DNA from: an uncultured Desulfobacter sp.
Lineage (GTDB): Bacteria > Desulfobacterota > Desulfobacteria > Desulfobacterales > Desulfobacteraceae
Direction of reading: 5' to 3'
Assembly (NCBI RefSeq): GCF_963665355.1
Contig: NZ_OY762229.1
Coordinates: 124,001-188,000 of the forward strand
Length of the DNA: 64,000 bases
Positions 9,922-27,209 of this stretch are shown in pieces (within the stretch, counting starts at the first letter, position 1; every line of letters begins with the position of its first letter). Below the pieces are notes generated by a model, which did not search any database, was not told where the DNA came from, and saw only the letters and a list, made by a program, of their open reading frames with translations. The position numbers were made by a program, and so were the translations under genes.

Positions 9922-10710
9922 GTGGAAAAACTAGTTTTCGGGCTGCATGTCAACAGCAATATCAATATTGAAATCATAAAAAGATCTCTGCTCTTTCAAC
10001 TGATCAAAGAAGAACCAACAGAGCTTTTTTATATCACTGAAACAGGAGGTTATATCTTTATTGCCAATTACGGCAGTGTGGTATTTGTCGATGTGGACCA
10101 GGGCGAACAAACCCTTATTTTACGATCCATCCGCGATCTTCTGGACATTGAATCCACACCACATTTTGAAAGTGAAAAATATACCATTGAAATCGACAGC
10201 AAAAAACAGCGCAGGGTTCTTTTCAATAAAGTCATTCTGACTTCATACGAGGTAGATAAGATCTACACGATCATGTTCTCCATCGCCCAGTCCATCGCCT
10301 TAAGTTATTACTGTTCACAGTCTGAATCTCTTATAGAAGAGACAAGGATCTACACCACCCAGCTGGAGACAAAGGGGAAAGTCGATCTTAAAGGCAGACA
10401 ACTGATCCAGTATATCGGAAAAGTCCTGAACTTAAAAAATCAGATTGCCCGCAACCTCTATGTCTTTGACACCCCGCAACTGATGTGGGAAGAGCAAAGT
10501 CTTGACGAGCTGCATACCGCCCTGACCCGGGAACTTGATATAACGCTGCGCTACCGTTATATCCAGGAAAATTTAGGAATTATCCAGGAGAATCTTGAGC
10601 TGTTCAAGGATCTTTCCCAGCACAGCCACAATGCCCAGCTGGAGTGGATTATTATCATTCTGATCCTCATTGAGGTGGTTGATCTGTTTGTAACTAAACT
10701 ACTCCGCTGA
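9922..10710 (+). CDS. RMD1/YagE-family protein (DUF155)
   Basis: 262 residues starting at a GTG with TGGAGGAAAT just upstream. The sequence resembles the RMD1/SIF2 (DUF155) family: an alpha/beta N-terminal half (IFIANYGSVVFVDVDQGE), a helical region rich in Glu and Leu, and one C-terminal membrane helix (residues ~240-260, WIIIILILIEVVDLF). Family members include mitochondrial RMND1; the bacterial role is unknown. The helical segment containing LDELHTALTRELDITLRYRYIQENLGIIQENL looks like a coiled coil. Its end overlaps the convergent phosphopantetheinyl transferase by 17 bases. Confidence 0.75.
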   Translation: MEKLVFGLHVNSNINIEIIKRSLLFQLIKEEPTELFYITETGGYIFIANYGSVVFVDVDQGEQTLILRSIRDLLDIESTPHFESEKYTIEIDSKKQRRVLFNKVILTSYEVDKIYTIMFSIAQSIALSYYCSQSESLIEETRIYTTQLETKGKVDLKGRQLIQYIGKVLNLKNQIARNLYVFDTPQLMWEEQSLDELHTALTRELDITLRYRYIQENLGIIQENLELFKDLSQHSHNAQLEWIIIILILIEVVDLFVTKLLR

Positions 10711-11431
10711 TCCTTTTGCCTCCCCCAGACGGATGTCCAGAGACAACTGAAAAAATGATATTATCCCGGTGGTATGATTTTACGAAAAGATCCTCAATGA
10801 CAGCATAATTTTCGAAAAGTGTTTCATCCAGCCATTCTATTTTTTTCACCGAGGCTTTTAAACCGGTCCGCCGGTATTTGAGCATCGCTTCTTTAATGGT
10901 CCAAATTTTCAGAATGGTTTCAAGATCTGCGCCGGCATATGTCTGTTGTTCTTTTTGGGAAAATCCGGCATGTAAAAGCGCCGGGATATCCACAGGGCGT
11001 ATGACCTCCATATCAATGCCCAGGGCATTGGCTTTACCGGGCAGGGCTGCGGCCAGGGCATAATCACCGGCATGTGAAATGGATATGGCATAATCAAGAA
11101 AGGCTGGCAAAACGGGTGCCCCGGATGAATCATTGTGTATTTCAATGTCATCCGGGGAAAGTTTTGCCTGCTGCATGACAAGGTTCTTGACTGCCCACCG
11201 TCCGGCCAGGCGCTCCACCTGTTTTTTCAGGGCAAACAATTGATTGAGTCCGGTGAGTTCAGCTTGAGACAGCACAGGCTGTGCAAACTCATCCCGACGG
11301 AATTGGATGCCGGGCCTGGTCTGGTAACCAGGCCCGACACTTTGGGGTAACAACGCCTTGAGCATTTCCGGAATGTGGACAAGACAGAAATGAATGCCCT
11401 GGTCCCGGAACAGCAGGCGTGTGTTCTGCAT
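10694..11431 (-). CDS. 4'-phosphopantetheinyl transferase (Sfp/PfaE-like)
   Basis: 245 residues. The family motifs are clear: GIDMEVIRP at about residue 137 (Mg-binding Asp) and the WTIKEAMLK motif at about residue 173. It transfers the 4'-phosphopantetheine arm of CoA to carrier-protein domains. Its ATG directly abuts the stop codon of the giant synthase with no spacing, so it should be coupled to that gene and is the obvious activating enzyme for the four ACP domains encoded there. This mirrors pfaE next to pfaABCD clusters. The N-terminal region before residue 60 is less conserved. Confidence 0.9.
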   Translation of the reverse strand: MQNTRLLFRDQGIHFCLVHIPEMLKALLPQSVGPGYQTRPGIQFRRDEFAQPVLSQAELTGLNQLFALKKQVERLAGRWAVKNLVMQQAKLSPDDIEIHNDSSGAPVLPAFLDYAISISHAGDYALAAALPGKANALGIDMEVIRPVDIPALLHAGFSQKEQQTYAGADLETILKIWTIKEAMLKYRRTGLKASVKKIEWLDETLFENYAVIEDLFVKSYHRDNIIFSVVSGHPSGGGKRISGVV

Positions 11432-14400
11432 TTATCCGGCCATCAGACCGCTGCCGGCCAGTTTGACCTTGGACATGTCGGGCAGTTCCTCCTGGGCCAG
11501 ACGATCGACCCGGACCATTTCAAAGCCCTGGATATCAACGATCACACGGCCTGAAGTATCTGCCAGCTGCATGTTATAGGTCTTTGTGTCACCATCCTGG
11601 GCCAGACGCCGGGTCAGACAGAAATAAGGCGTATCAGGCAGAACAGTCCCTGCGAATGAGGCCTTCTGGATGGAAAAGGGCAATACCACGTCCGTACTGG
11701 TGAAAAACTCCAGTATGCCGCCGGTCTGGAACATGGCATCCATGATCACTACGGGGGTGGCAAATTCAGGATAGGTCTGTCCTTTAAAGAATTCGCGCCC
11801 GGGCCGCCATTGAACCACGGTGACAAGACCATCCGGGTCCAGTTCAACCAGCTGATCCACGGAGCGGAACAGTCCGTCCATGAACAGGCGGTCCGCATGG
11901 TAGATCTGTTCCTGCCACCCGGGATCAACCTTTAATTCGGCTACCGCCGGGATCTGGGTGGTTTGGGGTGTTGATGGCGTCATTGCAATCTTGAACTTTC
12001 CCTGGAAATGCAGGGTATCCTGGACCGGCGCTTTACCGCCCGGAGGAGTGAAAACAGAGTGTATCCGGGTGGCTATCATCCCGTCCGCCATTTTTTCAGC
12101 ATACACTTCAATCTCTTTGGGACGGTTTTTCAACAGCTTGATGCCATAGGGGATTTTAAAATCACTGACCTCAAGGATGTGTCCCCGGCCACCGCTGCAC
12201 TCCAGGGCTGCTTCAGCCATGGTTTCCAGACCGGTGGCACCCAGGAACAGAGGCACACCTTTTCTTTCGTGGTCAAAAAGGAAAAGATCTCTGTCAGCTT
12301 CCAGAAGGCGTTTGAACTTCAGCCCCTCCCGGCCGGCATCCTTTTCCACGGAATCCAGAAAAGGCCCCACGGCAAGCAGTCCGTCCGGATCAAAGGCGGC
12401 CGGATTTTTTTCCGGGGGCGCACCAATGAGAATCTCAACGCTTTCCGGATTGTGCAGCTCTTCCTTGAAAAACCGGATACCTTGTGCCACCGGCAGAAAG
12501 GCAATGCCTTTTTCCTTTAACACGGCTTCAATGGTGCCTTCCGATGCCATACCGATTTCGGCCCAGGCGGTCCAGTCAAAAATTTTGAAGGTCAATCCCT
12601 GGGTTTTCAACGCCTGTGCCTGTATCATGGCCCCCATCATGTCGTTTCCGGCCGTGTAGTCTGACTGGGCTTCGTTGCCGAATCTGGCCGTGATGGATGA
12701 AAAACCGATGAGATACCGGCAGTTTTTGTTTTCAATGGCTGCCAGCACATTGGCCAGTCCCTTGACCTTGGTGTCAAACACCACGTTAAAGTCATCCATG
12801 GATTTTTTCTCAATCATGATGCTTCTGTCCACACCGGCGGCATGTATTACCCCGTCAATGCGCTCGTATTGGCTGATGGCCTTTTGTACGGCATCGGGAT
12901 CGGTGACATCCACAGCATGGTAGTCCACGGTTTTTACCTTGCTGCGCAGCCGGGCCAGATTGTCCCGGGCGGTGAGAATGCGCCGCAGACCAGCAGCCCT
13001 TTTTTTCAGCTCAACGGGCTTGGCGTTGGGATGTATGGATTTGAGAGCCGCCATGATCTGTGTGTCACTCATGGCTTCGGCCCCGGAAACTTCCAATTCG
13101 TCTTCCACACGGCTGCGTCCTAAAATGACCAGGTTCATATTGGGACCTGCAATCTCCCTGACCAGTTCATAGGTGATGCCCGCAGCACCGCCTGTGACCA
13201 GCAGAGTATCGCTCCCTTTTATGACGGAAGTCTCTTCTCCCGAAAGCTGTGATTTTTGCCCGCCGCCGCTCTTTGCCCGGATACCGAATCTCAAGCCCTT
13301 TTCATGCCCCACCTCCAGATGGGTTGTGGCGCCAAAAACTTCACCCAGGAACAAGGCTGCGGCACCGGCCATATCGGTCAGCTCGTTTTTATCCATGAAC
13401 TCCACAAGTTTGACCCCTGTGCCCGGGTACTCCTTGGCAACCGTTTTCAGCAGACCTGAAATACCGCTGAAAACCGGATAAATCCGATCCGGTGCCGGTG
13501 CCCTGAAACGAGCCAGGGCGGACTGGACCGACACGGCAGCCAGACGGCCCCGGGATTGATCCAGCTGGTCTGCAAAGGCCTTGCACAACAGGAATAAAAA
13601 TTTAACTGCATCTGCCCCCTCCTGCAGATTTTCACCGCCATCCGCAATAACATCCAGGGGATGGAGGAAAAAGATCCCGGAAAGGTTTTCATGATCCACC
13701 TTTATCCGGTCAATGATCTCCCGGGCTTTGTCAAGGGTGTTCAAGTCTACTGTATAATCATCCTGCTCACTGCTGCCCACGCAGATGACATCTCCTTTGT
13801 TTGCCCTGATCAGGTCAGCCACAGCCCGGCCAAATCCCTGGTGATCCATGGTGATCAAATAGGTCTGTCCTTCAAGGCCGGGATTGACCGGTACAGGGTC
13901 AGAAAGCTTGCGCAATCCAAAGGCATAACGCTGGATTCCGGCCGGACTTGATTGAACCGGCTGCTCTGTTTCAGTATCCTGTGTGCCGGGGGCTGAAGGG
14001 GCGGGCGTGGTCACAGGCGTCACATCACTCTTTCCCCCCAGGCCGGCTTGGACATATTCACTGATTTTCCGGATGGTGTTCAATTCAGAAAGATTTATAT
14101 CCTCGGGCACGGACAGTCCGTACTCTTTGGTGATCTTGCCGAAGGTCTCCACCTGTTTCACCGTGTCAATGCCCAGATCAGCCTCCAGGTCCAGGTCCGG
14201 TTCCAGCATGTCCAGGGCGTAACCGGTTTGATCGGCGATCATGGCTATGATCTCACCGGTGATGTCCGACGAGGTGCCGGCACCTGAATCCGGGGTCTGG
14301 GTCACTGCCCCGGAGCCAGGCTGTGCAGGGGATTCATCTGTCTGAATCTGGCTGCTGATGTAGTCTGCAATTTTCCGGATGGTGTTCAGTTCCGAAAGGC

Positions 14401-17400
14401 TGATATCCTCGGGCACATTCAGGCCAAAGGATTTGGTGATTTTGCCGAAGGTCTCCACCTGTTTCACCGTGTCAATGCCCAGATCCGCTTCCAGATCCAG
14501 GTCCGCTTCCAGCATGTCCCGGGTGTAGCCGGTCTGATCGGCGATCATGTCGGTGATGGCATCCAGGACGCCTGCGGACGGGGCTGATCCGGAAACCCCG
14601 GCTGCGATTGCACCTGTGTCAGATTCAGGCTGTCCGGGGATGTCATCGGTCTGAACCCGGCTGCTGATGTAGTCTGCAATTTTCCGGATGGTGTTCAGTT
14701 CCGAAAGGCTGATATCCTCGGGCACGCTCAGGCCGAAGGACTTGGTGATCTTGCCGAAGGTCTCCACCTGTTTCACCGTGTCAATGCCCAGATCCGCTTC
14801 CAGATCCAGGTCCGCTTCCAGCATGTCCCGGGTGTAGCCGGTCTGATCGGCGATCATGTCGGTGATGGCATCCAGGACGTTTGCAGACGGAGCTGATCCC
14901 GAAGGCGCCGGGGTTGTTGCCGCTGAACCGGAGTCAGGCTGTTCCGGTGTTTCATCCGTATTAACCCGTTCTCCGATATAACCTGCAATTTTCCGGATGG
15001 TGTTCAGTTCCGAAAGGCTGATATCCTCGGGCACGCTCAGGCCGAAGGACTTGGTGATCTTGCCGAAGGTCTCCACCTGTTTCACCGTGTCAATGCCCAG
15101 ATCCGCCTCCAGGTCCAGATCCGGTTCCAGCATGTCATGGGTGTAGCCGGTCTGGTTTGCAATGAGTTCGGTAATCTGGCTTAAGACATTTTTGGACCCG
15201 GCATTGCCTGCAACTTTTTTAGGCTGTTCTGCCGGAGCAGATACCGTCGGTACGGGTTTCAGGTCTGCCTTGGGCGCCGAAACCGGGGCTTTAGGCGCAT
15301 TTTGCCCGGCCGGCTGACGGCCTTTGTCCGCCAAACCGTTTTGTGCCTGGGCCATTGTTTCTGCACGCTCCTCCCTGGGAAAAACACACAGGGTTTTATG
15401 TATGACGCTGAGCATGGGATCCGGGCTGCCGGAAATCCGGGTCAGCCACTCATGATAAACCGGGTTGTTTTCCACACCGGCTTCTTCAAGTCGATCCAGC
15501 ATCAGGAAGGCAAAATGGGACCCGAAACCTGCGCTGAAATGCAGACCATATCGGTAATCGCCCTTCCCTTCCTGGGCAAAATTCAGATCTGAAAATTCGT
15601 CAGGCACATGAACCAGGTTGGCCACAGGCGGAATTTTCCTTGCCTGGAGGCCTTTCACCAGTATGGCATCCTCAATGCCCGCCCCCAGGGTGTGGCCGGT
15701 GTATCCCTTGGTATTGGTGACCACAATCTGCTTATAATCATCGGGGAATGCGCTCTTTAACGCCTCAACCTCTGCCGAGGCACTGCCGCCCCGGGCCGGG
15801 GTAAAGGTCTCATGGGACATGAATACCAGCTGTTTTGCCATGTCCGACCGGGAGATGGCGTTTTGCTTTTCCACCAGTCCCACGAATTTTCTGAGCTCAC
15901 CGGCAAGGTGGTTCACATCAATACGGGAGGGATGAAATGCACTGTTGCCGATATAGGAACCCATAATTCGAACCTGGCCGTTCAATCCCCTGCGTTTCAG
16001 GGTATCTTCCCGTTCCACCACAACACCCACGGCACCTGAACCTAAAATGGTTCCGTTGCGGTCCGCATCAAAGGGTTTGGCTGCGTCGGAGATCACTTCC
16101 TTGCTGGTGGCTGCGCCCATGGCCAGGAATCCTGACCCCACCCAAGGCATCTGGGCATCAGTTGTGGCCGCTTCACCGCCGATGACGATCACCCGCTCAC
16201 ACCGGGCGCTTCGAATCCAGTCCTGGGCCACGCCAATGGCCTGGGTGGTGGATGCACAGGCACCGTGCAGGTGAATATTGGGTCCCTTTGCCCGGATGAG
16301 ACTGGCAAAATGGGCTCCGCCCAGGGAGACGATGTCAAAGAGGATATTGCGTTCAAATTTGTACTGGCCGTATATTTTGCGGCGCTCACGAATCTTAAAA
16401 AACCAGTCCGTGATAATATCCTTCATATCCCTGTCCGTAAGATTTTCCATCAGATGATAGTAGATATTTTCCAGCTCATCATAGGGTCTGACGTAGAACT
16501 TGTTGTAATAATATGCATTGAGATGATGCAGCAGGGTTTCAAATCCCGGAAAAATACCCGTCATGATCACGCCTGTCGTCTGCTGCATCTCTTCGGGCAA
16601 CACCAGTCCGTCTGGGATTTTGCTGCCGGTGGAGGTTTTTTTATACGCTTTGACCAGGGGGATATGGGCGTCTTTCAGCGCCTCAATCCCTGCGGCCATG
16701 GCCAGTTCATCCACAAGGTCAAATTTTCTGCTGATGCCGTATTCCGTAGCCAGATCAAAATACCCCAGTTTCCCGGCAAGCTGGATCACATCACTGGTGT
16801 TCACGATATCCACAAACTTGGCATTGCCGTTGGGTTCCTTGAATACACGGGTGATGTTCATGTCCACAATTTTCTTTTTCTCTTCCTGGGTCAACGGCTC
16901 AATGAAATTATTTCCGGCAAGAATCCGGTCAAAATTTTTCTCATTGAACACCTGATTGCCTTTGCCCGGCAGCCCTATGGCCGCACCCACGATACAGACC
17001 GAGCCGGTATAAAGGCCCAGATTCTCAACGGCCTCCAGGGCCTTTTTCTTCTGAAATGCCTGATATTCGCGCTGTAATACGGTTTGAACCAGATTTTGAT
17101 TCTGCTTTACAAAAGTATCAAAATCCACATCGCTGTTCATCGCTTCTTTGGGCACTTCCGTTTTTTGCAGCTCTTCAGGTTCGGGCGTCATCACTTCCCG
17201 GGAAGCCGGCGCAGTTGCCTGGACAATTTGCTTTTCAGAAGATGCGATGAACTGCTCTATGGCCAGGGTGAAACATTCAAGCTCGCCTTTTTTGGCATCT
17301 GCCGTGGGCATGGATTCCGGATTTTCGATGGAGATGTTTTTCAGCAGGTTGCACAAAAGCCTGCCCGGTCCGATCTCAATAAACCGCCGGCAACCCTGGG

Positions 17401-20400
17401 CATGAACGCCTTTTACGGATTCTACAAATTCCACAGGAGAGACGATCTGGCGCGCCAGATGCTGCCGAATCATCTGTTCATCCGCAGGATAGGGTTTTGC
17501 GGTGAGGTTTGAAATAATTTTATGGGCATTTTTAAGATTGAATTTTACAGCCCCAAGGGTCTTGGCCATATTCTGGGCCGCAGGTTCCAGCAACGGGGTG
17601 TGAAAGGCCGCGGACAAAGCCAGTTTTTTATGGAAAATATCTTTGTCTTTCAAGTGGGCGCAGAAAAGATCTATGCCTTTGGTTGTCCCGGCAATGGCGG
17701 TCTGCTTTTCACTATTTTTGTTGACCAGCCAGATATCGGAAACCCCGGATTCTGAGATCATATCCTGGGCGCCTTTTTCCCCGTCAAATACCACCATGAT
17801 CCCGCCGGGGTTTTCGTTGGAGGCCTGGGCCATGAAGTCAGCCCTGGAGATCACAAGGTTCATGGCTGTGCTGAAATCAAGCAAGCCTGCACAATAAAGG
17901 GCGGAGTATTCCCCGACGCTGTGGCCGATATAAAAATCAGGCTGAAAACCTTTCAGGTCCAAGGCATGATAAATGGCGGCCGTGGACAGGAAGATCGCGG
18001 GCTGGGTATTTTCCGTCTGGTTGAGCGGGGCACCTCCGGCGTTCATGATATCCAGAAGAGAAGTTCCCCTTCGTTCCTGGAAGATGGATTCTCCCTGATC
18101 CATCATGGTTTTGATCTCAGGAACAGACTCATAAAGGGCTTTGAGCATACCTGCAAACTGGGCGCCCTGGCCTGAAAGCAGAGCCGTGACAGCATCGGTC
18201 CGAATCTTATCCGGCCAGACACCGGGGGTGACTTCGGACAGTTCAGCAGTTGCGTAAGCGCTCTGGGGCCGCAGGAAACGCGGCAGGCGACCGATGACCA
18301 CATGGGCGTGGTTGCCGCCGATACCGTTGACATCTGCGCCGAGAAGCGCATTGTCCGCCAGCGGCGTTATCTCTTTGACCGGGTGCAGCAGGCTGTCCTT
18401 TTCTATGAGCGTGGAGTCGGCTCTATACCCGTGGGTGGGCAGCAGAACCCCCTTATCCGACATCATCAGAAGCCTTGTCATGACCACCCCGGGATTGGCT
18501 GCTTTAAAGTACCCGAATTCGGTTTTGATATTACCGTACGCCAATGGACGAATCAGGCTTTTTTCAATGGCCTGTTTTTCCACCAGATCCAGGAAGGGAT
18601 TGGACACGCCGAATACATCCAGGTAGGCCAGATCGGTTTTCCGGGTTTTAAACACCCCGGTATCATTTGCCAGAACCTTCTCATATTTGTTTTCAGAAGG
18701 TGACAGTAAATGCTCAGGCGCACTTCCCGCCATATTCAGGCATTTCAATTCACCCAGGATGGGCATGTTGTTTTGTTTGGCATAGGCATAGGTGGTGACA
18801 ACCAGGCAGGCTGCCCCCTCGCCCATGACATACCCGTTGGCCTTATTGTCAAACAAGGTGGGTTCAGTCTCCGCCAGAATACCCAGGCGCTTGAATGCCA
18901 GCAGTACCCCCGGATACAGGTTGGTATCCACCCCACCGGTGACCACGGCGTCCAGGTTGCCTGCCCGCAAATTTTTAACAGCCAAGTCCAGGGCCATGGT
19001 GGCCGAAGCACATGAGCCATCCACCACAAAATTGGTGCCCTGGGTATTATAATGTTTGGAGATGCGGGCAGACACAATATTTGACAGCATGCCGGGGATG
19101 CTGTCCCCGGTCATGGCCGGATACCTTTGCCTCAAAAGATCGCCTATGTTTTGTGCAATGGCGGAAAGAGCTTTTTCATCCACCTGTTCGGTGGACCGGA
19201 TCATGCGCTGGAGCAGCGGAATCCGGGTGCGGATAACAGACTCGACATTCCGGGTTCCGGAGATTGTGCCCAGGATGACCCCGACCCTGTTGCCGGCCGG
19301 CAGCCTGTCCAGTAGTCCGGCATGTGCAAGGGCCTGGCCCGCCGCATCCAGGCCGAACAACTGGGCCCGGTCCATGAATGTCATGGCGGAAGGCGGAATT
19401 TTAAAAGCTTTGGGATCCAGCATAAAATCGTCGACAATGCCGTTTTTCATCATGGGCAGGTGAAATCCCGAAGATACGTCCTCCTCGGCATAGCACGCAT
19501 TGGCCAGGCGCTGGGCTGGCATAGGCTGGTAAGACTTTTTCCCGGCGACCATGTTGTCCCAGAACGCATCAATGTTTCGGGCCTTGGGCAGAACAACGCC
19601 CATGCCGGAAAAGACGATTCTCTGGCCATTGGGATCATGGTCAAGGTCTGTAAAAATTTTGCGGGGCAGAGTCGCGTAGTCCCCGTTGAACTCGCTGACC
19701 ACGGTATGGTAGTTAATCCCCCCGAATCCATAGGAGCTTACCGCTGCCATGCGCGGGCCGGTGGCGGGCGTCTGCCAGGGCTTCGGGCTCTCCAGGATAA
19801 ACAGGGATGACCCGGGAATGTCGATTTTGGGAGAAATTGTTGCAAACGCCCCGTTGGGAGGCAGAACCTGATGGTTTATCGCCAGCAGCGTTTTGATCAT
19901 TCCGGCCATGCCGGCAGCTCCCAGCAGATGGCCGATCTGGGACTTAATGGATGAAACCCCGATGGATCCGTTTCGGTCATACACCTGGCGCAGGGTCTCC
20001 ATCTCCACGGCATCCCCCACCTTGGTGCCGGTGCCGTGGGCTTCAATGAACTGCACCATTCCGGGGGAGAATTGTGTTTTTATCTTTTCATGGCAGCGCT
20101 GGAACGCCAATCGCTGTCCCTCTTTATCAGGGGCGGCAATGCCTTTGCCCTTTCCGTCGGAAGAGGCGGCAATACCCTTGATGACCCCAAGAATGGAATC
20201 ATTTTCCCGGATGGCATCTTTGAGGCGTTTCAGAACCAGGACGCCGGCCCCTTCGCCCAGGGTAAAGCCGTCAGCCCGTTCATCAAAGGGATATGATCCG
20301 TTGGCAGACAGGGTGCCCATCTTGCAGAATCCCACAAAGGATTCCGGTGTGAGGTTCGTGTTGACACCGCCTGCGATGACCATGTCATGGGTTCCGCTTA

Positions 20401-23155
20401 ACAATTCATGGATGCCGCACTCAATGGCGGCAAGGGCTGTGGCGCATGCGGCATCAACCACGTAATTGGTGCCGGTAAGGCCCAAATGGTGTGAAATGCG
20501 GGCCGCTTCCATGTTCAAGGTGACGCCGTGCACGGGTTCGTAAAGAGAGCCCTGGGACATTTTTACGCGCAACTGGTTAATGATTTGATCCTGTTCGCCC
20601 TGGGGCAGTGCATTGAATTCAGGAGTGCTGCGCAGGTACTGTTTAACCTCGGGAAAAAAGTATTTAAAATGCAGGTCCGATGCCATTTCATTGCCAAGGC
20701 ATGTGGCCACAACAACGGCCGTGCGGCTCTGTTTATCCGCTGCAATCCGACGATCCTGGGTTAACAGATTTGCGTTTTCCACTGCCTGATAGGCCGCATG
20801 AAGCAGCATCTGCTGGCTGCGGGACAATTTGGATGCCTTGGCCGGCGTATACCCGAACCGTTCATTGTCAAACTCAAAATCATTCACCAGGCCTGCGATC
20901 TTTGTATAAGACTTGTCTAAGGCTTTGGGATCAGGATCATAGTACAGGGTTTTTTCCCAGCGGTTGTCAGGCACCTCGGAAATACTGTATTTCTTGTCAA
21001 GGATATTCTGCCAGAAGGTCTCTGTGTCATGGGCGTCGGGAAACACGCATCCCATGCCCACCACGGCGATTTCATCATTGATCTGGCCGTCCGGGGAAAA
21101 AAGAAGTTCAAGGGCGTCGAGGCGGGCAACAAGCCTATCCTTTTGCAGGAATAATTTGCTATGAATTTCGGCAATGGTGGTCTGTTCTTCAAAGAACAAA
21201 AGGCCTTCTCCGGTCATGAAATTGCCGTTTGCCCGCTGTTCTTCTTCGGTGTATACAATCCATTGACCGTTGTTTTTATGTCCGAAATCAGGGGTCTTAC
21301 CTTTGGCACTGATGAGAAGTGATCCTAAGTTATCTTTCTCAAAGGCGCTTTTGCGTGAGCCTAAATTCATGGTGTCATCGGCCAGACGGCAATGTTCATT
21401 TTTCATCATCTGGCCGGCAAAGACCGTGTCTGCGGTGCGGCAGGGAAGGCCCACGGTGGATCCGATGATGGTGGTGCGCTGGTGGGACCGGACCACCTGC
21501 TGGTAGACGGGTGTCAAGGCACCGGTATCAATAATCTCTTTGGTGAACAGGTAGGCCGTGCCCAGTTGAATGCCGACCCTTACCCCTTCCCGGGCCAGAA
21601 GCGCGGCCATGGCAGATATGAAATGGGAACCTTCGGCGCTGATAATGCCCCCGGCAAAAAGCACGCTCATATTGGGGCGTTGATCCGAAGGAAGATCCAG
21701 CATGGATTCAATGCTCAGTTCCCACAGGATGGTGCTGGACAGACTGCCGATATGACCGCCGGCTTCATTTCCTTCCAGGATAAAACGTCTGGTCCCTTTT
21801 TCAAATGCGTTTTTCAGCACGCCCGGCATGGGGGTATGAAGATATGCGCGTGTGCCGCAGGCTTCCAGTTCATTGATTTGGGAGGGAATGCCGCCGGCAA
21901 AAAGCGCAAAGGGCGTCTTCTTTTTCTTAATCAGGTCCAGGTGATGATCCAGGGTGGGGTTAAAAGCTTTAATACCGATCATGCCGGCGCCAAACACGGG
22001 CAGCTCATCTGATTTTTCCGGCAGGATCTGGTCTGCGATCTCCACGGGAAGACTGCCCAGGGCAAAGAAAGGCAGACCGCCGTTTTCATAAACAGCCCTT
22101 GCGAATGCCTTGTTTTCGGAAATGTTGGCCATGGGGCCCTGGGTGATGGGAAAACGGGTTCCATGGTCCTGTGCCAGGGATGTGTTTTCCGTCAGGGGAT
22201 CAAATTGTTCCACAGCATTCAGGGCTTTTCCCACAAACGTGAACAGGGCATGGATGATCTGGACCAGCCGGCTGCCGCGCTTTTTAAAGTGACGGGCAAA
22301 CACCGCGTCCTGGCCAAGATAGAACAGGGACTGCATGGGTGTATCATGATCCTGGCCCAGGGATGCCATATTCTGTTCAAGTGCGGTGTCAATGAACTCC
22401 AGCCCCTGACCTTCTGCCTTTTTAATGCAAATCTTTTTGATCAGGTCCTGGACAATCTTTGTCCCGGGCTTGGCAAAGACCCGGTGCTGTGTGTTGCCGC
22501 CCCGGTCCAGGATAACGGTGTCGGTCTCTTCCATTTTTTCAAGGACCGCTTTAAAGCTTTCTGAAACCGGAGCATCTTCGGCCAGGTAGAGCTGGCTGTC
22601 CAGAACCAGGCCTGCGGCACCGGATGCAAAAAAGCCCGGAGCCGTGTGAAAGCCCACACCACCGTGGACAAAATACGGCAGGTTGCTTTTTTGCACATAA
22701 TACTGGCTTAACATGAAGCTTGACGCAGAAGATGTTCTGCCCCCGGCCTCCCGGCCTTTTAAAATCATCCCATGGGGGTTGATCTCTTTGATGATGGTCT
22801 CAAGTCCGGGTTCGTAAATTTCAACCATGAAAATTTCAGCATTAACCGCTTGCCTTTTGGCAAGGGATTCCGGGCTATGATACGCAACGATGACACATTC
22901 GGGTAAATTGTCCGGGTGCTGTTCAAAATAATCCCAGATATGTTGATCTTCGGCATAAATGCGTATACCATGGCGCAAATTTTGATTTTTAAGCTGGGAC
23001 AAAAGATCAGAAAGTTTAGACGCGCCTATAAATTCTGTATCCAGAACAGGCATTGCACCGGCCTGCCAGATGTTTTTAAAAAAATCAAGGTTATATGTTT
23101 TGGGCGGATGATATGCCAGAAGGGGTAAACGGGTGGTCAGTACTCTATTCAGCAC
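11432..23155 (-). CDS. Giant single-chain PUFA/polyketide-type synthase (ER-ER-KS-KS0-AT-KS-ACPx4-KR-DH)
   Basis: About 3,907 residues from GTG 23155, which has AGAGGAG seven bases upstream; an in-frame TTG at 23317 lacks a ribosome site. In order: nitronate-monooxygenase-like barrel 1 (~8-215, GGR at ~137 where barrel 2 has GGH); barrel 2 (~333-640, EAGGHIG, His ~468); KS1 (~690-1150, Cys 904 with EAHGTGT and IGH); KS2 (~1180-1590, Cys 1382, but both catalytic His replaced by Phe and Tyr); AT (~1655-1960, GHSVGE Ser 1746); a divergent KS3 with inserts (~2050-2560, Cys 2300); four ACPs (~2650-3040); KR (~3100-3560, GGAAGI and DYTAGN); double-hotdog DH (His 3629, Asp 3806). With the adjacent transferase this is a full iterative fatty-acid or polyketide machine in one chain. 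The product is unknown. Confidence 0.93.
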   Translation of the reverse strand: MLNRVLTTRLPLLAYHPPKTYNLDFFKNIWQAGAMPVLDTEFIGASKLSDLLSQLKNQNLRHGIRIYAEDQHIWDYFEQHPDNLPECVIVAYHSPESLAKRQAVNAEIFMVEIYEPGLETIIKEINPHGMILKGREAGGRTSSASSFMLSQYYVQKSNLPYFVHGGVGFHTAPGFFASGAAGLVLDSQLYLAEDAPVSESFKAVLEKMEETDTVILDRGGNTQHRVFAKPGTKIVQDLIKKICIKKAEGQGLEFIDTALEQNMASLGQDHDTPMQSLFYLGQDAVFARHFKKRGSRLVQIIHALFTFVGKALNAVEQFDPLTENTSLAQDHGTRFPITQGPMANISENKAFARAVYENGGLPFFALGSLPVEIADQILPEKSDELPVFGAGMIGIKAFNPTLDHHLDLIKKKKTPFALFAGGIPSQINELEACGTRAYLHTPMPGVLKNAFEKGTRRFILEGNEAGGHIGSLSSTILWELSIESMLDLPSDQRPNMSVLFAGGIISAEGSHFISAMAALLAREGVRVGIQLGTAYLFTKEIIDTGALTPVYQQVVRSHQRTTIIGSTVGLPCRTADTVFAGQMMKNEHCRLADDTMNLGSRKSAFEKDNLGSLLISAKGKTPDFGHKNNGQWIVYTEEEQRANGNFMTGEGLLFFEEQTTIAEIHSKLFLQKDRLVARLDALELLFSPDGQINDEIAVVGMGCVFPDAHDTETFWQNILDKKYSISEVPDNRWEKTLYYDPDPKALDKSYTKIAGLVNDFEFDNERFGYTPAKASKLSRSQQMLLHAAYQAVENANLLTQDRRIAADKQSRTAVVVATCLGNEMASDLHFKYFFPEVKQYLRSTPEFNALPQGEQDQIINQLRVKMSQGSLYEPVHGVTLNMEAARISHHLGLTGTNYVVDAACATALAAIECGIHELLSGTHDMVIAGGVNTNLTPESFVGFCKMGTLSANGSYPFDERADGFTLGEGAGVLVLKRLKDAIRENDSILGVIKGIAASSDGKGKGIAAPDKEGQRLAFQRCHEKIKTQFSPGMVQFIEAHGTGTKVGDAVEMETLRQVYDRNGSIGVSSIKSQIGHLLGAAGMAGMIKTLLAINHQVLPPNGAFATISPKIDIPGSSLFILESPKPWQTPATGPRMAAVSSYGFGGINYHTVVSEFNGDYATLPRKIFTDLDHDPNGQRIVFSGMGVVLPKARNIDAFWDNMVAGKKSYQPMPAQRLANACYAEEDVSSGFHLPMMKNGIVDDFMLDPKAFKIPPSAMTFMDRAQLFGLDAAGQALAHAGLLDRLPAGNRVGVILGTISGTRNVESVIRTRIPLLQRMIRSTEQVDEKALSAIAQNIGDLLRQRYPAMTGDSIPGMLSNIVSARISKHYNTQGTNFVVDGSCASATMALDLAVKNLRAGNLDAVVTGGVDTNLYPGVLLAFKRLGILAETEPTLFDNKANGYVMGEGAACLVVTTYAYAKQNNMPILGELKCLNMAGSAPEHLLSPSENKYEKVLANDTGVFKTRKTDLAYLDVFGVSNPFLDLVEKQAIEKSLIRPLAYGNIKTEFGYFKAANPGVVMTRLLMMSDKGVLLPTHGYRADSTLIEKDSLLHPVKEITPLADNALLGADVNGIGGNHAHVVIGRLPRFLRPQSAYATAELSEVTPGVWPDKIRTDAVTALLSGQGAQFAGMLKALYESVPEIKTMMDQGESIFQERRGTSLLDIMNAGGAPLNQTENTQPAIFLSTAAIYHALDLKGFQPDFYIGHSVGEYSALYCAGLLDFSTAMNLVISRADFMAQASNENPGGIMVVFDGEKGAQDMISESGVSDIWLVNKNSEKQTAIAGTTKGIDLFCAHLKDKDIFHKKLALSAAFHTPLLEPAAQNMAKTLGAVKFNLKNAHKIISNLTAKPYPADEQMIRQHLARQIVSPVEFVESVKGVHAQGCRRFIEIGPGRLLCNLLKNISIENPESMPTADAKKGELECFTLAIEQFIASSEKQIVQATAPASREVMTPEPEELQKTEVPKEAMNSDVDFDTFVKQNQNLVQTVLQREYQAFQKKKALEAVENLGLYTGSVCIVGAAIGLPGKGNQVFNEKNFDRILAGNNFIEPLTQEEKKKIVDMNITRVFKEPNGNAKFVDIVNTSDVIQLAGKLGYFDLATEYGISRKFDLVDELAMAAGIEALKDAHIPLVKAYKKTSTGSKIPDGLVLPEEMQQTTGVIMTGIFPGFETLLHHLNAYYYNKFYVRPYDELENIYYHLMENLTDRDMKDIITDWFFKIRERRKIYGQYKFERNILFDIVSLGGAHFASLIRAKGPNIHLHGACASTTQAIGVAQDWIRSARCERVIVIGGEAATTDAQMPWVGSGFLAMGAATSKEVISDAAKPFDADRNGTILGSGAVGVVVEREDTLKRRGLNGQVRIMGSYIGNSAFHPSRIDVNHLAGELRKFVGLVEKQNAISRSDMAKQLVFMSHETFTPARGGSASAEVEALKSAFPDDYKQIVVTNTKGYTGHTLGAGIEDAILVKGLQARKIPPVANLVHVPDEFSDLNFAQEGKGDYRYGLHFSAGFGSHFAFLMLDRLEEAGVENNPVYHEWLTRISGSPDPMLSVIHKTLCVFPREERAETMAQAQNGLADKGRQPAGQNAPKAPVSAPKADLKPVPTVSAPAEQPKKVAGNAGSKNVLSQITELIANQTGYTHDMLEPDLDLEADLGIDTVKQVETFGKITKSFGLSVPEDISLSELNTIRKIAGYIGERVNTDETPEQPDSGSAATTPAPSGSAPSANVLDAITDMIADQTGYTRDMLEADLDLEADLGIDTVKQVETFGKITKSFGLSVPEDISLSELNTIRKIADYISSRVQTDDIPGQPESDTGAIAAGVSGSAPSAGVLDAITDMIADQTGYTRDMLEADLDLEADLGIDTVKQVETFGKITKSFGLNVPEDISLSELNTIRKIADYISSQIQTDESPAQPGSGAVTQTPDSGAGTSSDITGEIIAMIADQTGYALDMLEPDLDLEADLGIDTVKQVETFGKITKEYGLSVPEDINLSELNTIRKISEYVQAGLGGKSDVTPVTTPAPSAPGTQDTETEQPVQSSPAGIQRYAFGLRKLSDPVPVNPGLEGQTYLITMDHQGFGRAVADLIRANKGDVICVGSSEQDDYTVDLNTLDKAREIIDRIKVDHENLSGIFFLHPLDVIADGGENLQEGADAVKFLFLLCKAFADQLDQSRGRLAAVSVQSALARFRAPAPDRIYPVFSGISGLLKTVAKEYPGTGVKLVEFMDKNELTDMAGAAALFLGEVFGATTHLEVGHEKGLRFGIRAKSGGGQKSQLSGEETSVIKGSDTLLVTGGAAGITYELVREIAGPNMNLVILGRSRVEDELEVSGAEAMSDTQIMAALKSIHPNAKPVELKKRAAGLRRILTARDNLARLRSKVKTVDYHAVDVTDPDAVQKAISQYERIDGVIHAAGVDRSIMIEKKSMDDFNVVFDTKVKGLANVLAAIENKNCRYLIGFSSITARFGNEAQSDYTAGNDMMGAMIQAQALKTQGLTFKIFDWTAWAEIGMASEGTIEAVLKEKGIAFLPVAQGIRFFKEELHNPESVEILIGAPPEKNPAAFDPDGLLAVGPFLDSVEKDAGREGLKFKRLLEADRDLFLFDHERKGVPLFLGATGLETMAEAALECSGGRGHILEVSDFKIPYGIKLLKNRPKEIEVYAEKMADGMIATRIHSVFTPPGGKAPVQDTLHFQGKFKIAMTPSTPQTTQIPAVAELKVDPGWQEQIYHADRLFMDGLFRSVDQLVELDPDGLVTVVQWRPGREFFKGQTYPEFATPVVIMDAMFQTGGILEFFTSTDVVLPFSIQKASFAGTVLPDTPYFCLTRRLAQDGDTKTYNMQLADTSGRVIVDIQGFEMVRVDRLAQEELPDMSKVKLAGSGLMAG
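14040..15190. repeat. Four tandem ACP repeats inside the synthase gene
   Basis: Four near-identical units of about 306-309 bp encode ACP domains with motif LGIDTVKQVE. The Thr codons at the usual phosphopantetheine-Ser position lie at 15086-15088, 14777-14779, 14468-14470 and 14162-14164 (residues 2690, 2793, 2896 and 2998), so the period is 102-103 residues. Pro/Ala-rich linkers separate the units. The DNA similarity makes repeat number liable to change by recombination. Confidence 0.9.
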
Positions 23156-23262
23156 AGGGCTTCTCCTCTTAGGTTGTGTTTGAACGGCTGGTTTTAGAGG
23201 GGCACATGCCCGCAAAGCGACCCATCTGTGACGTTGTAAAAAACTTGCAAGATTCACAACCC

Positions 23263-23275
23263 GGGGGGGGGGGGG
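23263..23275. repeat. 13-base G homopolymer in the synthase leader
   Basis: Thirteen G (C on the synthase coding strand) lie 108 bases before the GTG start and about 90 bases after the predicted transcription start. If translation began at TTG 23317 the run would be inside the reading frame and would encode four prolines. Confidence 0.85.
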
Positions 23276-23371
23276 TGATTCCGACTGCAATTTTTTCTGG
23301 GCCTTGCATGTGGACAACTGTTTGCCCAGACACTGGGTGCCGTTCAGAGATAAAGTTCCTTCGCAAAATGC

Positions 23372-23387
23372 TACAAAGATCGTGCCA
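23372..23387 (-). promoter_or_regulatory. sigma-54 promoter of the giant synthase operon
   Basis: On the minus strand the site reads TGGCACGATCTTTGTA, against the consensus TGGCACG-N4-TTGCW: the -24 half is perfect and the -12 half has one mismatch (GT for GC). It faces the synthase and would leave a leader of about 205 bases. The divergent gene is a sigma-54 activator. A weak inverted repeat (ATGGCA 23465-23470, TGCCAT 23491-23496) lies about 80-120 bp upstream and might be an activator site. Confidence 0.65.
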
Positions 23388-23553
23388 CCCCTTGGATCAA
23401 AACTTTAATAGCCTGATTTCACGAATAAAAAAAAATCCTTACCCATAAATAAAATTTAAATTGCATGGCATTGTACAAAAAACGCATTCGTGCCATACAT
23501 TATATGAACAAGCAAAGGAACAACCATTGGACTGTGGTAACGGAATTGGGAAT

Positions 23554-25038
23554 ATGAAACAAAACATCTCGTTGCTGCCCGAAGAACTCAATTTTTTTAA
23601 ATGTGTGCACTACGCCAGTGCGGCCAACCCCTTCGGCAGGGAGCGGATTCTGCGGGAAGCTGAAATTGCAGGCGTTTCACCGGACAGCCCCAAAGAGATC
23701 AGGGTGCTCAAGGCATGCCAGGCCGTGGCTCATCATCTGGCCCAGGTGGAAGAGCGATGCGGCATCAATATCCATGCATTTAAGGGAGAGGAGAGGTATT
23801 TTTTACGCTCTGCACTGCTGTTTGACTATTTTCACCTGTTCAGAAAAAAAATCGACGCTCTGATCACAAGCCAGCTGGACAATGCAGAGACCTCTTTGGA
23901 TGCGCCTTTTGCGCCCGAGGCCCTGACCCTTTTGCGCGGCTGGGGGTTCAGCATAGAGGAGAGCAGGCGTTTCATTGCCCTGGCGTATCAACTGCGCCGG
24001 GCCTATTATTTTATTTTCCGGCATCTGGTGGGACGCAGCCGCTGTATGCAGGAGCTGCGACGGGATCTGTGGCAGAACGTGTTCACCCATGACATCCTCA
24101 TGTATGACCAGTACCTGTGGGACCGCATGGAAAATTTCTCCACCCTTCTGTTTGGAGAAACCGGCACGGGCAAGGGAACCGCCGCCCTGGCCATGGGGCG
24201 CTCCGGATATATTCCCTTTGACGAAAAGGAAAACAAGTTCACCCATAATTTTGTGAACACCTTTACCACGCTCAATATCAGCCAGTTTCCTGAAACCATC
24301 ATTGAATCCGAGCTGTTCGGCCATGTGCGCGGCGCATTTACAGGGGCCGTCAAAGACCATAACGGGGTGTTCAGCCGGTGCAGCCCCAATGGCTCCATTC
24401 TTCTGGATGAAATCGGTGAGTTGTCCACCCATGTCCAGATAAAACTGCTCAATGTGCTCCAGGACCGGTCCTATTCTCCTGTGGGCAGCGATGAAAAACA
24501 CCGTTTTCACGGCAGGATCATTGCCGCCACAAACCGCAGCATCCGGGAGATCCGGGAGAAAAAGATATTCAGGGATGATTTCTACTACCGCCTGTGTTCC
24601 GATATCATCACGGTGCCGCCCCTGCGCAAAAGGATTGCCCAGGATCCCGAAGAGCTGTCGGATCTTTTGACACATACGGTGACCCGCATTGTGGGCCAGC
24701 CTTCCCCGGAAATTGTCTCACGGGTGCTGGGCTATATTGAATCCAACCTGACCCTGTCATATCCCTGGCCGGGCAATGTGCGTGAACTGGAACAGTGTGT
24801 CCGGCGTGTGGTGTTGCGTAATGCCTATGAGACAGAGGAGGTGCCGGAACCCGCCTCCCAGACGGATTCCCTAACCCGGCAGATCCAGGAGGGCCGCCTC
24901 AGTGCCCAGGACCTGCTTATCCACTATTGCACCCGCCTGTATGAGAAGCACGACACCTATGAGGCTGTTGCCCGGATCGCCGGACTGGACCGGCGGACAG
25001 TTAAAAAATACATTGATTCCCAGGATCAGGTTTATTGA
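23554..25038 (+). CDS. sigma-54-dependent activator with an unrecognised N-terminal domain
   Basis: About 494 residues. The first ~195 residues form a helical domain with no PAS, GAF or receiver signature that I recognise. The AAA+ domain has Walker A GETGTGKG near residue 201, the sigma-54 loop GAFTGA near 262 and Walker B LLDEIGE. The C-terminus has a Fis-like helix-turn-helix (YEAVARIAGLDRRTVKKYID). It is divergent from the giant synthase gene, and a sigma-54 promoter lies between them, so it is the probable dedicated regulator. ATG 23554 is taken as the start; an in-frame TTG at 23527 has a better ribosome site (AAAGGAA, 6-base spacing) and would add nine residues. Confidence 0.85.
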   Translation: MKQNISLLPEELNFFKCVHYASAANPFGRERILREAEIAGVSPDSPKEIRVLKACQAVAHHLAQVEERCGINIHAFKGEERYFLRSALLFDYFHLFRKKIDALITSQLDNAETSLDAPFAPEALTLLRGWGFSIEESRRFIALAYQLRRAYYFIFRHLVGRSRCMQELRRDLWQNVFTHDILMYDQYLWDRMENFSTLLFGETGTGKGTAALAMGRSGYIPFDEKENKFTHNFVNTFTTLNISQFPETIIESELFGHVRGAFTGAVKDHNGVFSRCSPNGSILLDEIGELSTHVQIKLLNVLQDRSYSPVGSDEKHRFHGRIIAATNRSIREIREKKIFRDDFYYRLCSDIITVPPLRKRIAQDPEELSDLLTHTVTRIVGQPSPEIVSRVLGYIESNLTLSYPWPGNVRELEQCVRRVVLRNAYETEEVPEPASQTDSLTRQIQEGRLSAQDLLIHYCTRLYEKHDTYEAVARIAGLDRRTVKKYIDSQDQVY

Positions 25039-25718: not shown

Positions 25719-27209
25719 CTAATGTTTTTCGTTTCTGGTGAAAAACCGTCCCAGGCCATGGAGGATGACACCGATCAGCGATCCCAGCACAAGGAGCCGG
25801 CCTGCCCAGTCCAGCATGACGGAACGATCCCGCCCCGGCATGTAAAACCCTGTCAGCCCGGCCAGGCGTCCGGTGTCTTTGACATGGCATTGGATGCAGG
25901 CAAGGACATTGTCCCTGGGGGCCACCATATGGGTGATGGGAAATACATAGGAGGTGTCAACAAAATCAAACTCGCCTGAATAGGGAAGGTCTAAATAATT
26001 CTGTCCGTAACGAATGGCCGCATCCCAGTCAAATCCTTTCCAGTAAGCCGCCGTATCTGTTTTATCCCGGGGAAACAGGTGGGGGGCCACAAGCTTTTTA
26101 TTCACTTTATCATAGGGGATTTTACCCCGGTGAACCTTGAACGGAAAGATGCGCGACTTTTCATCAGCCATATCGCCGTCGGGTCTGCTCACCGCCACTT
26201 CGCCGGATGGATCAATGGTATCCTTCAAAGTGAGATGTTCTATGGATCCATTGAACCAGAAGTATTCGGGCACCACGTTCTTCTCCCACCTGAATGTGCC
26301 TTTTTTGGTGACATATGCGGGTTTTCCCAGGTCATCCTTCAGGGTATAGGGTTTGCCGTCTTTCATTTTTCCTGCTGCAGACCAGTCCCAGTACATTTTG
26401 GTGGGATTGATTCGGGCATATTGGGGAATATGGCAACTCTGACAGGCCACCCGGTCTGTATGATCATTGGCTTTGGCGTTGTGCCGGTGGGGTTCCCTGC
26501 CGTGGCAGGAGACGCAGGTAATTTTTGATGTCAGATCGTCCTCAATTAAAGATTTATCATTTTCCGCCGCAGGCCGGGTATAAATCCGGCCTGCAATATG
26601 GTGTTCTGAGGTGGAGTGGCACCGGGTACAGTTAAAATTCTGGCCGTCAGTGCCCATATGGACATCCAGGTTCCTGGCGGGGTTGGTCAGAGAAGAATCC
26701 AGATCGCCATGCTTCACGCCGTCGCCGCCGCCACCGTAAAAATGACAGGTTCCGCAATTTTTACGCCCGGGCCGGCTCACACTCTGGGCCACGCGGTTCC
26801 ACTCCGGAGGATCGTATGTTTTATGATCTTCTTTGAATACTGTGGTTTCCTTAGCCGGATAGCCGGCCCCGGTGGGGAATTTTTTATAGGTACCGGTGGT
26901 TTCATGGCACACAAGACAGTCCACTTTCGTTTGATCGGTAAAATCAAAGGATTTGTCTTTCCAGCCGTATCCGGCATGGCATGATGTGCAGCGGGCCTCG
27001 TTGCTCTGGGCGATGATACAAAAATTATTGACGGATAATCCGCCCTTCCCCAGGGGGGCGGCCTGATCTTTGCCCGGGGCTTTCCAGGTCCAGTGAATGG
27101 TTTTATGAAACTGCAGGGCTGCCTCGTTATGACAGGTCAGACAGGCCGCCGTGACTTCCGGGCCTGAAGTAAATTCCTTTTGATTAGGGAGAGCCCGACT
27201 TTCTTCTTT
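25719..27209 (-). pseudogene. Octaheme c-type cytochrome (tetrathionate reductase family), 5' end lost
   Basis: The frame encodes 496 residues with eight CxxCH haem sites (CLTCH, CTSCH, CLVCH, CGTCH, CTRCH, CVSCH, CQSCH, CIQCH) and a C-terminal membrane helix, as in the OTR-type octaheme cytochromes. It begins directly after a TAA (27210-27212). There is no ATG, GTG or TTG until GTG 26924, which would remove the first two haems, and no secretion signal is encoded. The intact family starts with a signal peptide and a short lead into the GPEVTAACL segment seen here. No upstream frame supplies the missing part. The gene therefore seems 5'-truncated, unless an assembly error is present. The cytochrome b gene downstream is intact. 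The gap 27213-27612 shows nothing else convincing. Confidence 0.7.

Follow-up and report, generated by a model that had tools for sequence, protein, structure and literature searches.

The gene described here probably corresponds to Type S of Shulse and Allen 2011 (PMC3098273), a match that follows the text description given there and not the domain order. Type S as described from Desulfobacterium autotrophicum HRM2 likewise comes from a sulfate reducer of the same family and has a PPTase beside the synthase (PMC3098273). Its authors suggested a core-FAS role, the same guess as is reached here, because HRM2 is without fabA/fabZ; in sections 5 (part 1), 7, 8 and 10 of PMC3098273 their case is built on a single strain and two genes and does not include FabF or FabD. 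No further report of a type I FAS in these bacteria was found in the open-access literature searched. Fused pfaDA synthases of Ottowia, Aquimarina and Flavobacterium likewise have an ER gene fused to a PfaA-like gene, but their description gives them separate pfaBC genes and hybrid PKS-NRPS clusters (PMC13291983).

The window, which is the whole analysed stretch of 64,000 nucleotides from an uncultured Desulfobacter sp., contains the following features at this locus.

10694..11431, minus strand: PPTase (PF01648), its first base directly after the megasynthase stop codon
11432..23155, minus strand: megasynthase gene, GTG start at 23155, 3907 aa
11486..12388, minus strand: PKS-type DH, His and Asp in 21/21 (Pfam, alignment)
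12416..13258, minus strand: KR, Ser/Tyr conserved (Pfam, alignment)
13271..13753, minus strand: conserved stretch before KR, putative pseudo-KR by position only (alignment block)
14045..15190, minus strand: four tandem ACPs (Pfam)
15386..17005, minus strand: KS3, Cys-His-His intact (alignment; FabF side of the KS tree)
17276..18193, minus strand: AT, malonyl-type by motif (GHSVG, Arg, xAFH), a meaning of the motif that we assume (Pfam, alignment)
18221..19663, minus strand: KS2, Cys kept, both His lost; groups weakly with the genome's own PfaC-type CLF
19676..21088, minus strand: KS1, Cys-His-His intact (Pfam, alignment, KS tree)
21137..22225, minus strand: ER2, NMO/FabK-like enoyl reductase, presumably with FMN (Pfam; EAGGH in 21/21)
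22226..23155, minus strand: ER1, FabK-like barrel without the ER2-type His (residue alignment, predicted fold, fold search)
23372..23387, minus strand: sigma-54-like (-24/-12) site TGGCACGATCTTTGTA, 11/12 match
23461..25038, plus strand: divergent sigma-54 activator, a conserved neighbour, start probably 23554 by ortholog comparison

In the ORF list, the open frame at 11432-23317 on the minus strand runs through 3961 codons without interruption. The GTG at 23155 is its likely start because most orthologs align only from residues 34-56 of this 3961-codon frame onward, the protein of a close relative (L039) starts at the position of this GTG, and the codon sits 7 bases after AGGAG. The end coordinate 23155 of an earlier note on this DNA is thus the likely start codon. 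That note had described a single frame of about 11.7 kb with the order ER-ER-KS-KS-AT-KS-ACPx4-KR-DH and a PPTase at its stop, and the ORF list, Pfam, motifs and folds agree with it, including the adjacency of the PPTase, which carries PF01648 and starts on the base after the stop. An assembly join of several genes, which the note had considered, is ruled out, as all 20 fetched family orthologs are colinear with the window protein over its full length and the catalytic residues are common to them. The PPTase contains SGAP and ISISH, in line with the motifs P1a x(G/D)xP and P1b' hShxH given for Type S (PMC3098273). Between the sigma-54-like site and the GTG start, the leader has a run of 13 C at 23263-23275.

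The order ER1-ER2-KS1-KS2-AT-KS3-ACPx4-KR-DH is carried by one protein, in which Pfam finds NMO, three KS (N-domains), AT, four PP-binding domains, KR and a PKS-type DH, and neither a FabA-type dehydratase/isomerase domain nor a thioesterase. The Pfa/secondary-lipid core of KS-MAT-tandem ACP-KR is present with four ACPs (Pfam), and the best NCBIfam match is the PfaA model with an E-value of 3e-279, the TIGR02813 score of 929.9 being below the cut-off of 1010.1. The kinship to PUFA/secondary-lipid synthases proposed earlier is therefore upheld, and so are the fused N-terminal enoyl reductases and the KS-KS-AT-KS order (Pfam, residue alignment, ortholog architectures). PfaC-type FabA-like DH domains are absent from the protein and present elsewhere in the genome.

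The residue alignment comprises the window protein and the 20 family orthologs. Cys-His-His of KS1 and KS3, Ser, Arg and His of the AT, and Ser and Tyr of the KR are conserved throughout the 21 sequences, while in each of them KS2 retains Cys and has lost both catalytic His. At the position of the ER2-motif His, ER1 has R, K, Q, M or N. ER1 is below detection in Pfam and, whereas ER2 was matched, it was missed by the PDB sequence search, so a fold search was needed. Modelled alone, ER1 is predicted as a FabK-like barrel (pLDDT 90) with FabK as the best PDB match (TM 0.80/0.78). For the ER1-ER2 model (29-row alignment, pLDDT 89) the top match is again FabK (E 1.9e-16, its chains having a TM to target of 0.74-0.82), whereas PfaD is weaker (best E 1.9e-8, 0.35-0.42 over a longer chain). 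In a quick KS tree of 57 rows, the KS3 sequences cluster together (support 100) and fall on the FabF side of a split with support 99, and KS1 groups beside the PfaC-type KS (92). The KS2 sequences also form one group (100), placed beside the genome's PfaC-type CLF (84), a grouping that is unsure because the branch is very long. The best PDB sequence matches of KS2 and DH are polyketide synthases. By homology and residues, all elongation-cycle activities are present on the protein.

The gene is nearly universal in its family. The ER-ER stretch is matched, partially in some cases, in 73 of 86 family genomes and in 41 of the 42 high-quality ones, and the domain order, which the earlier note could not place exactly, is the usual one at orthologous loci of the family. 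Sixteen of the fetched orthologs have 44.7-47.1% identity to the window protein, and four of the window's genus have 79.8-82.3%; G020, one of the sixteen, is also labelled as the window's genus. In the named scan, the best 80 of 404 relatives include Desulfobacter, Desulfobacula, Desulfotignum, Desulfospira, Desulfocicer, Desulfamplus, Desulfoluna, and Desulfobotulus, as well as many MAGs and six Spirochaete MAG loci. We take family f1 to be Desulfobacteraceae and f122 to be the Desulfoluna family; G582 corresponds to Desulfoluna limicola ASN36, G029 to Desulfobacter vibrioformis of the window's genus, G057 is taken by us to be Desulfobacterium autotrophicum HRM2, and one genome of the distant family f63 is presumably Desulfomonile tiedjei. 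A MAG titled Desulforapulum autotrophicum (L201/G491, 300843 bases) groups with f122 and not f1, and its title may be wrong.

Among 394 phylum genomes, 9 match KS3 at E ≤ 1e-60, and six of these belong to f63. Full-length orthologs with KS2 (53 counted) have from one to eight ACPs. The f63 form is without KS2. Pfam confirms a PPTase at its C-terminus in L082 (PF01648, 5.6e-17); the domain is weakly visible in L080, L081 and L083 and was not found in L085 or L086. A TetR-type neighbour was identified in one f63 locus (L081) and a TetR-type upstream gene in one Spirochaete locus (L150). In the Spirochaete loci L150 (15502-21168) and L205 (15133-21012), a BC-BCCP-CT carboxylase fusion of 1888 or 1959 aa, which by its domain content is acetyl-CoA-carboxylase-like, lies downstream of the synthase. 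L158 has a 1767-aa gene downstream, L148 has other genes there without a carboxylase, and two of the six loci end inside the synthase. D. limicola has OAD-beta and carboxyltransferase genes downstream of the megasynthase.

The upstream region suggests sigma-54 control. Of 77 distinct upstream regions, 53 have a strong match to the window's activator within their fetched locus, divergent where viewed. The best -24/-12 match reaches at least 10/12 in 47 of these 53 regions, in 9 of the 16 KS2-type loci for which no activator is in view (the other seven include all six Spirochaete loci), and in none of the eight loci without KS2; these counts include related loci and are not independent. Single-base shuffles reached at least 10/12 in 100 of 3850 cases, and a sigma-70 promoter scan gave nothing. 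Elsewhere in the window, at 25719-26924, there is an octaheme cytochrome c gene (TIGR04315, over the cut-off) beside a cytochrome b561 gene.

Type II FAS genes were compared over 194 genomes drawn evenly from the order with completeness of at least 90%. The ER-ER stretch is matched in 41 of them at E ≤ 1e-30; 37, some with broken or partial frames, are counted as carriers, and G307, G561, G575 and G576 are excluded for weaker matches, two of these four (fetched as L097 and L099) having a shorter form. With presence set at E ≤ 1e-75, FabD is missing in 27/37 carriers and 27/157 non-carriers (Fisher 1.5e-10, kinship ignored), and by family majority in 7/11 carrier and 5/47 non-carrier families (p 6e-4), those five being without FabD in most sampled members. 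G247 with a sub-cut-off 417-aa FabD copy and G553 with a partial FabD are counted as lacking it, and two genomes counted as positive sit just under the FabD cut-off. FabZ, present in 161 genomes by E-value and 160 by the tool's cut-off, is missing in 22/37 carriers and 11/157 non-carriers (p 1.2e-11, kinship ignored); G029 and G530 are counted as lacking it and have sub-cut-off matches. By family majority this becomes 2/11 and 3/47 (p 0.24, not significant). As FabZ loss is strong by genome and not by family, FabD is the better test, and FabZ loss was dropped as the main statistic. Both genes are missing in 15 genomes, all of them carriers.

FabF, FabH and FabD were further checked in 44 selected genomes (15 f1, 7 f122, 11 other carriers, 11 non-carriers); here as in the 194-genome comparison, absence calls depend on the profile cut-offs. 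FabF is over its cut-off in 0/15 f1, 0/7 f122, 10/11 other carriers (G488 being the sole one without) and 11/11 non-carriers; the f1 genome G052 has a KS at 474.6 bits against the cut-off of 493.75, and some f1 genomes hold other KSs. FabH is over the cut-off in 43/44, the exception being a non-carrier, and FabD in 18/44, including 9/11 non-carriers. FabF, FabZ and FabD are all absent in the six f1 genomes tested for the three (G000, G014, G002, G052, G055, G069), and FabD is kept in the f1 genomes G020 and G021. In f122, FabF and FabZ are absent in 7/7 and FabD is kept in six. Only FabD is missing in f111, f115, f116, f127 and f152; of the eleven or fewer genomes sampled there, eight were tested for FabF. 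Since FabZ is kept in fifteen carriers and FabF in 10/11 carriers outside f1 and f122, the megasynthase need not replace type II FAS.

D. limicola is represented by one contig, 96% complete. At E ≤ 1e-20, the FabD model matches only FabD and the megasynthase, and no FabZ is found; the sole PF07977 match has an E-value of 1e-5, and no PfaC-type DH was found in this genome. Its one FabF-like KS at E ≤ 1e-60 adjoins an ACP, an SDR, a BATS radical-SAM protein and a BioF-like aminotransferase, a gene content that suggests a biotin-type cluster. The Desulfoluna locus L115 (7791-13749) has BATS radical-SAM, SDR, ACP, KS, a 139-aa unknown and BioF-like genes, which may give it a pimelate route of its own to biotin.

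The reading we prefer, with a probability of roughly 0.6, is that the megasynthase is a sigma-54-controlled type I FAS of the Pfa/secondary-lipid lineage that would make ordinary C14-C18 chains. Relatives have lost the usual separate fatty-acid genes, which suggests that the megasynthase makes their ordinary membrane fatty acids rather than an exotic lipid. In the proposed cycle, the AT would load malonyl onto the ACPs of the megasynthase and also, in genomes that have lost FabD, onto free ACP; the MAT of PfaA has been reported to replace FabD in vivo (PMC8174602). The retained FabH would prime, KS1 would condense with KS2 as a non-condensing CLF-like partner, and KR, DH and the reductase ER2 would complete each cycle with ER1 as a non-reducing partner barrel. 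KS3 would be a second active KS, perhaps FabB-like for monounsaturated chains or handing chains to free ACP, and the C14-C18 acyl chains would go to phospholipid. Desulfobacteraceae must have some system for C16 elongation, since they make 10-methylpalmitate, which is described as the main mid-chain branched acid of the family (PMC7791843). The Spirochaete carboxylase fusion beside the synthase in two loci counts for the type I FAS reading, as do the near-universality of the gene and the gaps in the type II FAS set of carriers. Against it are FabZ loss being non-significant by family, the carriers that keep FabZ or FabF, the five non-carrier families without FabD, the residual FabD copies of G247 and G553, the other KSs of some f1 genomes, the locus L148, and the other long frames with FabA-type DH in f1 genomes.

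Such frames lead to the view that the core synthase is another Pfa-like cluster or an unrecognised dispersed pathway, with the megasynthase making a family-specific accessory lipid. The window's own genome has a second Pfa-like cluster at C2:4336280-4345710 (L035:10281-19711) with PfaD, KS-AT-ACP2 and KR-DH-FabA2, thus including FabA-type DH; FabA-bearing frames of ~2500 aa occur in many family genomes among the matches listed, and FabH is retained. We regard this as unlikely, since non-carriers that have FabF and FabD, such as G226 and G634, also show AT-bearing frames of ~2100-2400 aa, sameness of the cluster not being implied, the complete D. limicola is without a second AT-bearing long frame, and the megasynthase tracks FabD loss. 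The genome further holds, at C2:3266000-3285999 (L036), several FabF-like KS genes with an exporter-like gene, a cluster that we take to be perhaps aryl-polyene-like.

At C2:4305512-4314242 (L033:9513-18243), a PfaC-like KS-CLF-FabA protein lies directly before OleA- and OleB-like genes, and an OleC-like gene stands one gene further along; this is an olefin-type cluster. Together with the Pfa homology of the megasynthase and the published pfa-ole gene link (PMC3098273, section 10), it could mean that the two loci jointly make long (poly)unsaturated chains or olefins. This partnership is weakened because the PfaC-type DH is widespread without the megasynthase (at E ≤ 0.001, with weak matches counted, it is found in 153/194 order genomes, of which 123 are non-carriers), and it is quite unlikely, as five Desulfoluna-type g321 genomes carry the megasynthase without a PfaC-type DH and the loci are far apart in their own genome (C2 at 0.14 and 4.31 Mb). 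An iterative polyketide synthase for a specialised metabolite would fit the KS-AT-ACP-KR-DH logic and the PDB matches of KS2 and DH, and is very improbable given no conserved adjoining tailoring genes in the 20 family loci viewed, a near-universal gene, a malonyl-type AT and a reductive set with FabK-like ER. The compact iterative fatty-acid factory of the earlier note is supported by inference; the polyunsaturated, branched or hydrocarbon product that it suggested is not supported, as the protein has no FabA-type domain and its gene, besides being so widespread in the family, tracks the loss of housekeeping type II FAS.

Along with the type I FAS reading, there is about an even chance that Desulfobacteraceae, and perhaps independently the Desulfoluna family, gave up type II elongation for a sigma-54-controlled type I synthase of the PUFA lineage, and that carriers of other families are intermediate stages (FabD lost, FabF/FabZ kept), so that the takeover can be traced stepwise. 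If true, bacterial type I FAS would have arisen a separate time in anaerobic sulfate reducers, through a PUFA-synthase-derived enzyme that stands in for FabF, FabZ and FabD; the source of C16 precursors for 10-methylpalmitate would be explained, and the 2011 guess about one strain would become testable.

In the usual teaching, bacteria use type II FAS, the main exception being some Actinobacteria. The FAS I of fungi and Actinobacteria likewise serves as the housekeeping FAS with its activities on one or two chains; its domain order and origin are different, and the fungal FAS carries a fused PPTase as the f63 form does. The KS-MAT-ACPn-KR core and the ER and PPTase functions are common to the megasynthase and the canonical PUFA synthase PfaA-E. 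In contrast to PfaA-E, the megasynthase is one polypeptide with tandem FabK-like ERs, the extra KS2 and KS3, and no FabA-type DH. Type R, a KS-MAT-CLF-ACP-KR gene followed by a PPTase gene, likewise has a KS-family domain between AT and ACPs, but its description gives no fused ERs and no second KS before the AT (PMC3098273). Compared with Type S, for which the guess of a core-FAS role in one strain is already published, the comparative gene-loss evidence for that role is new here.
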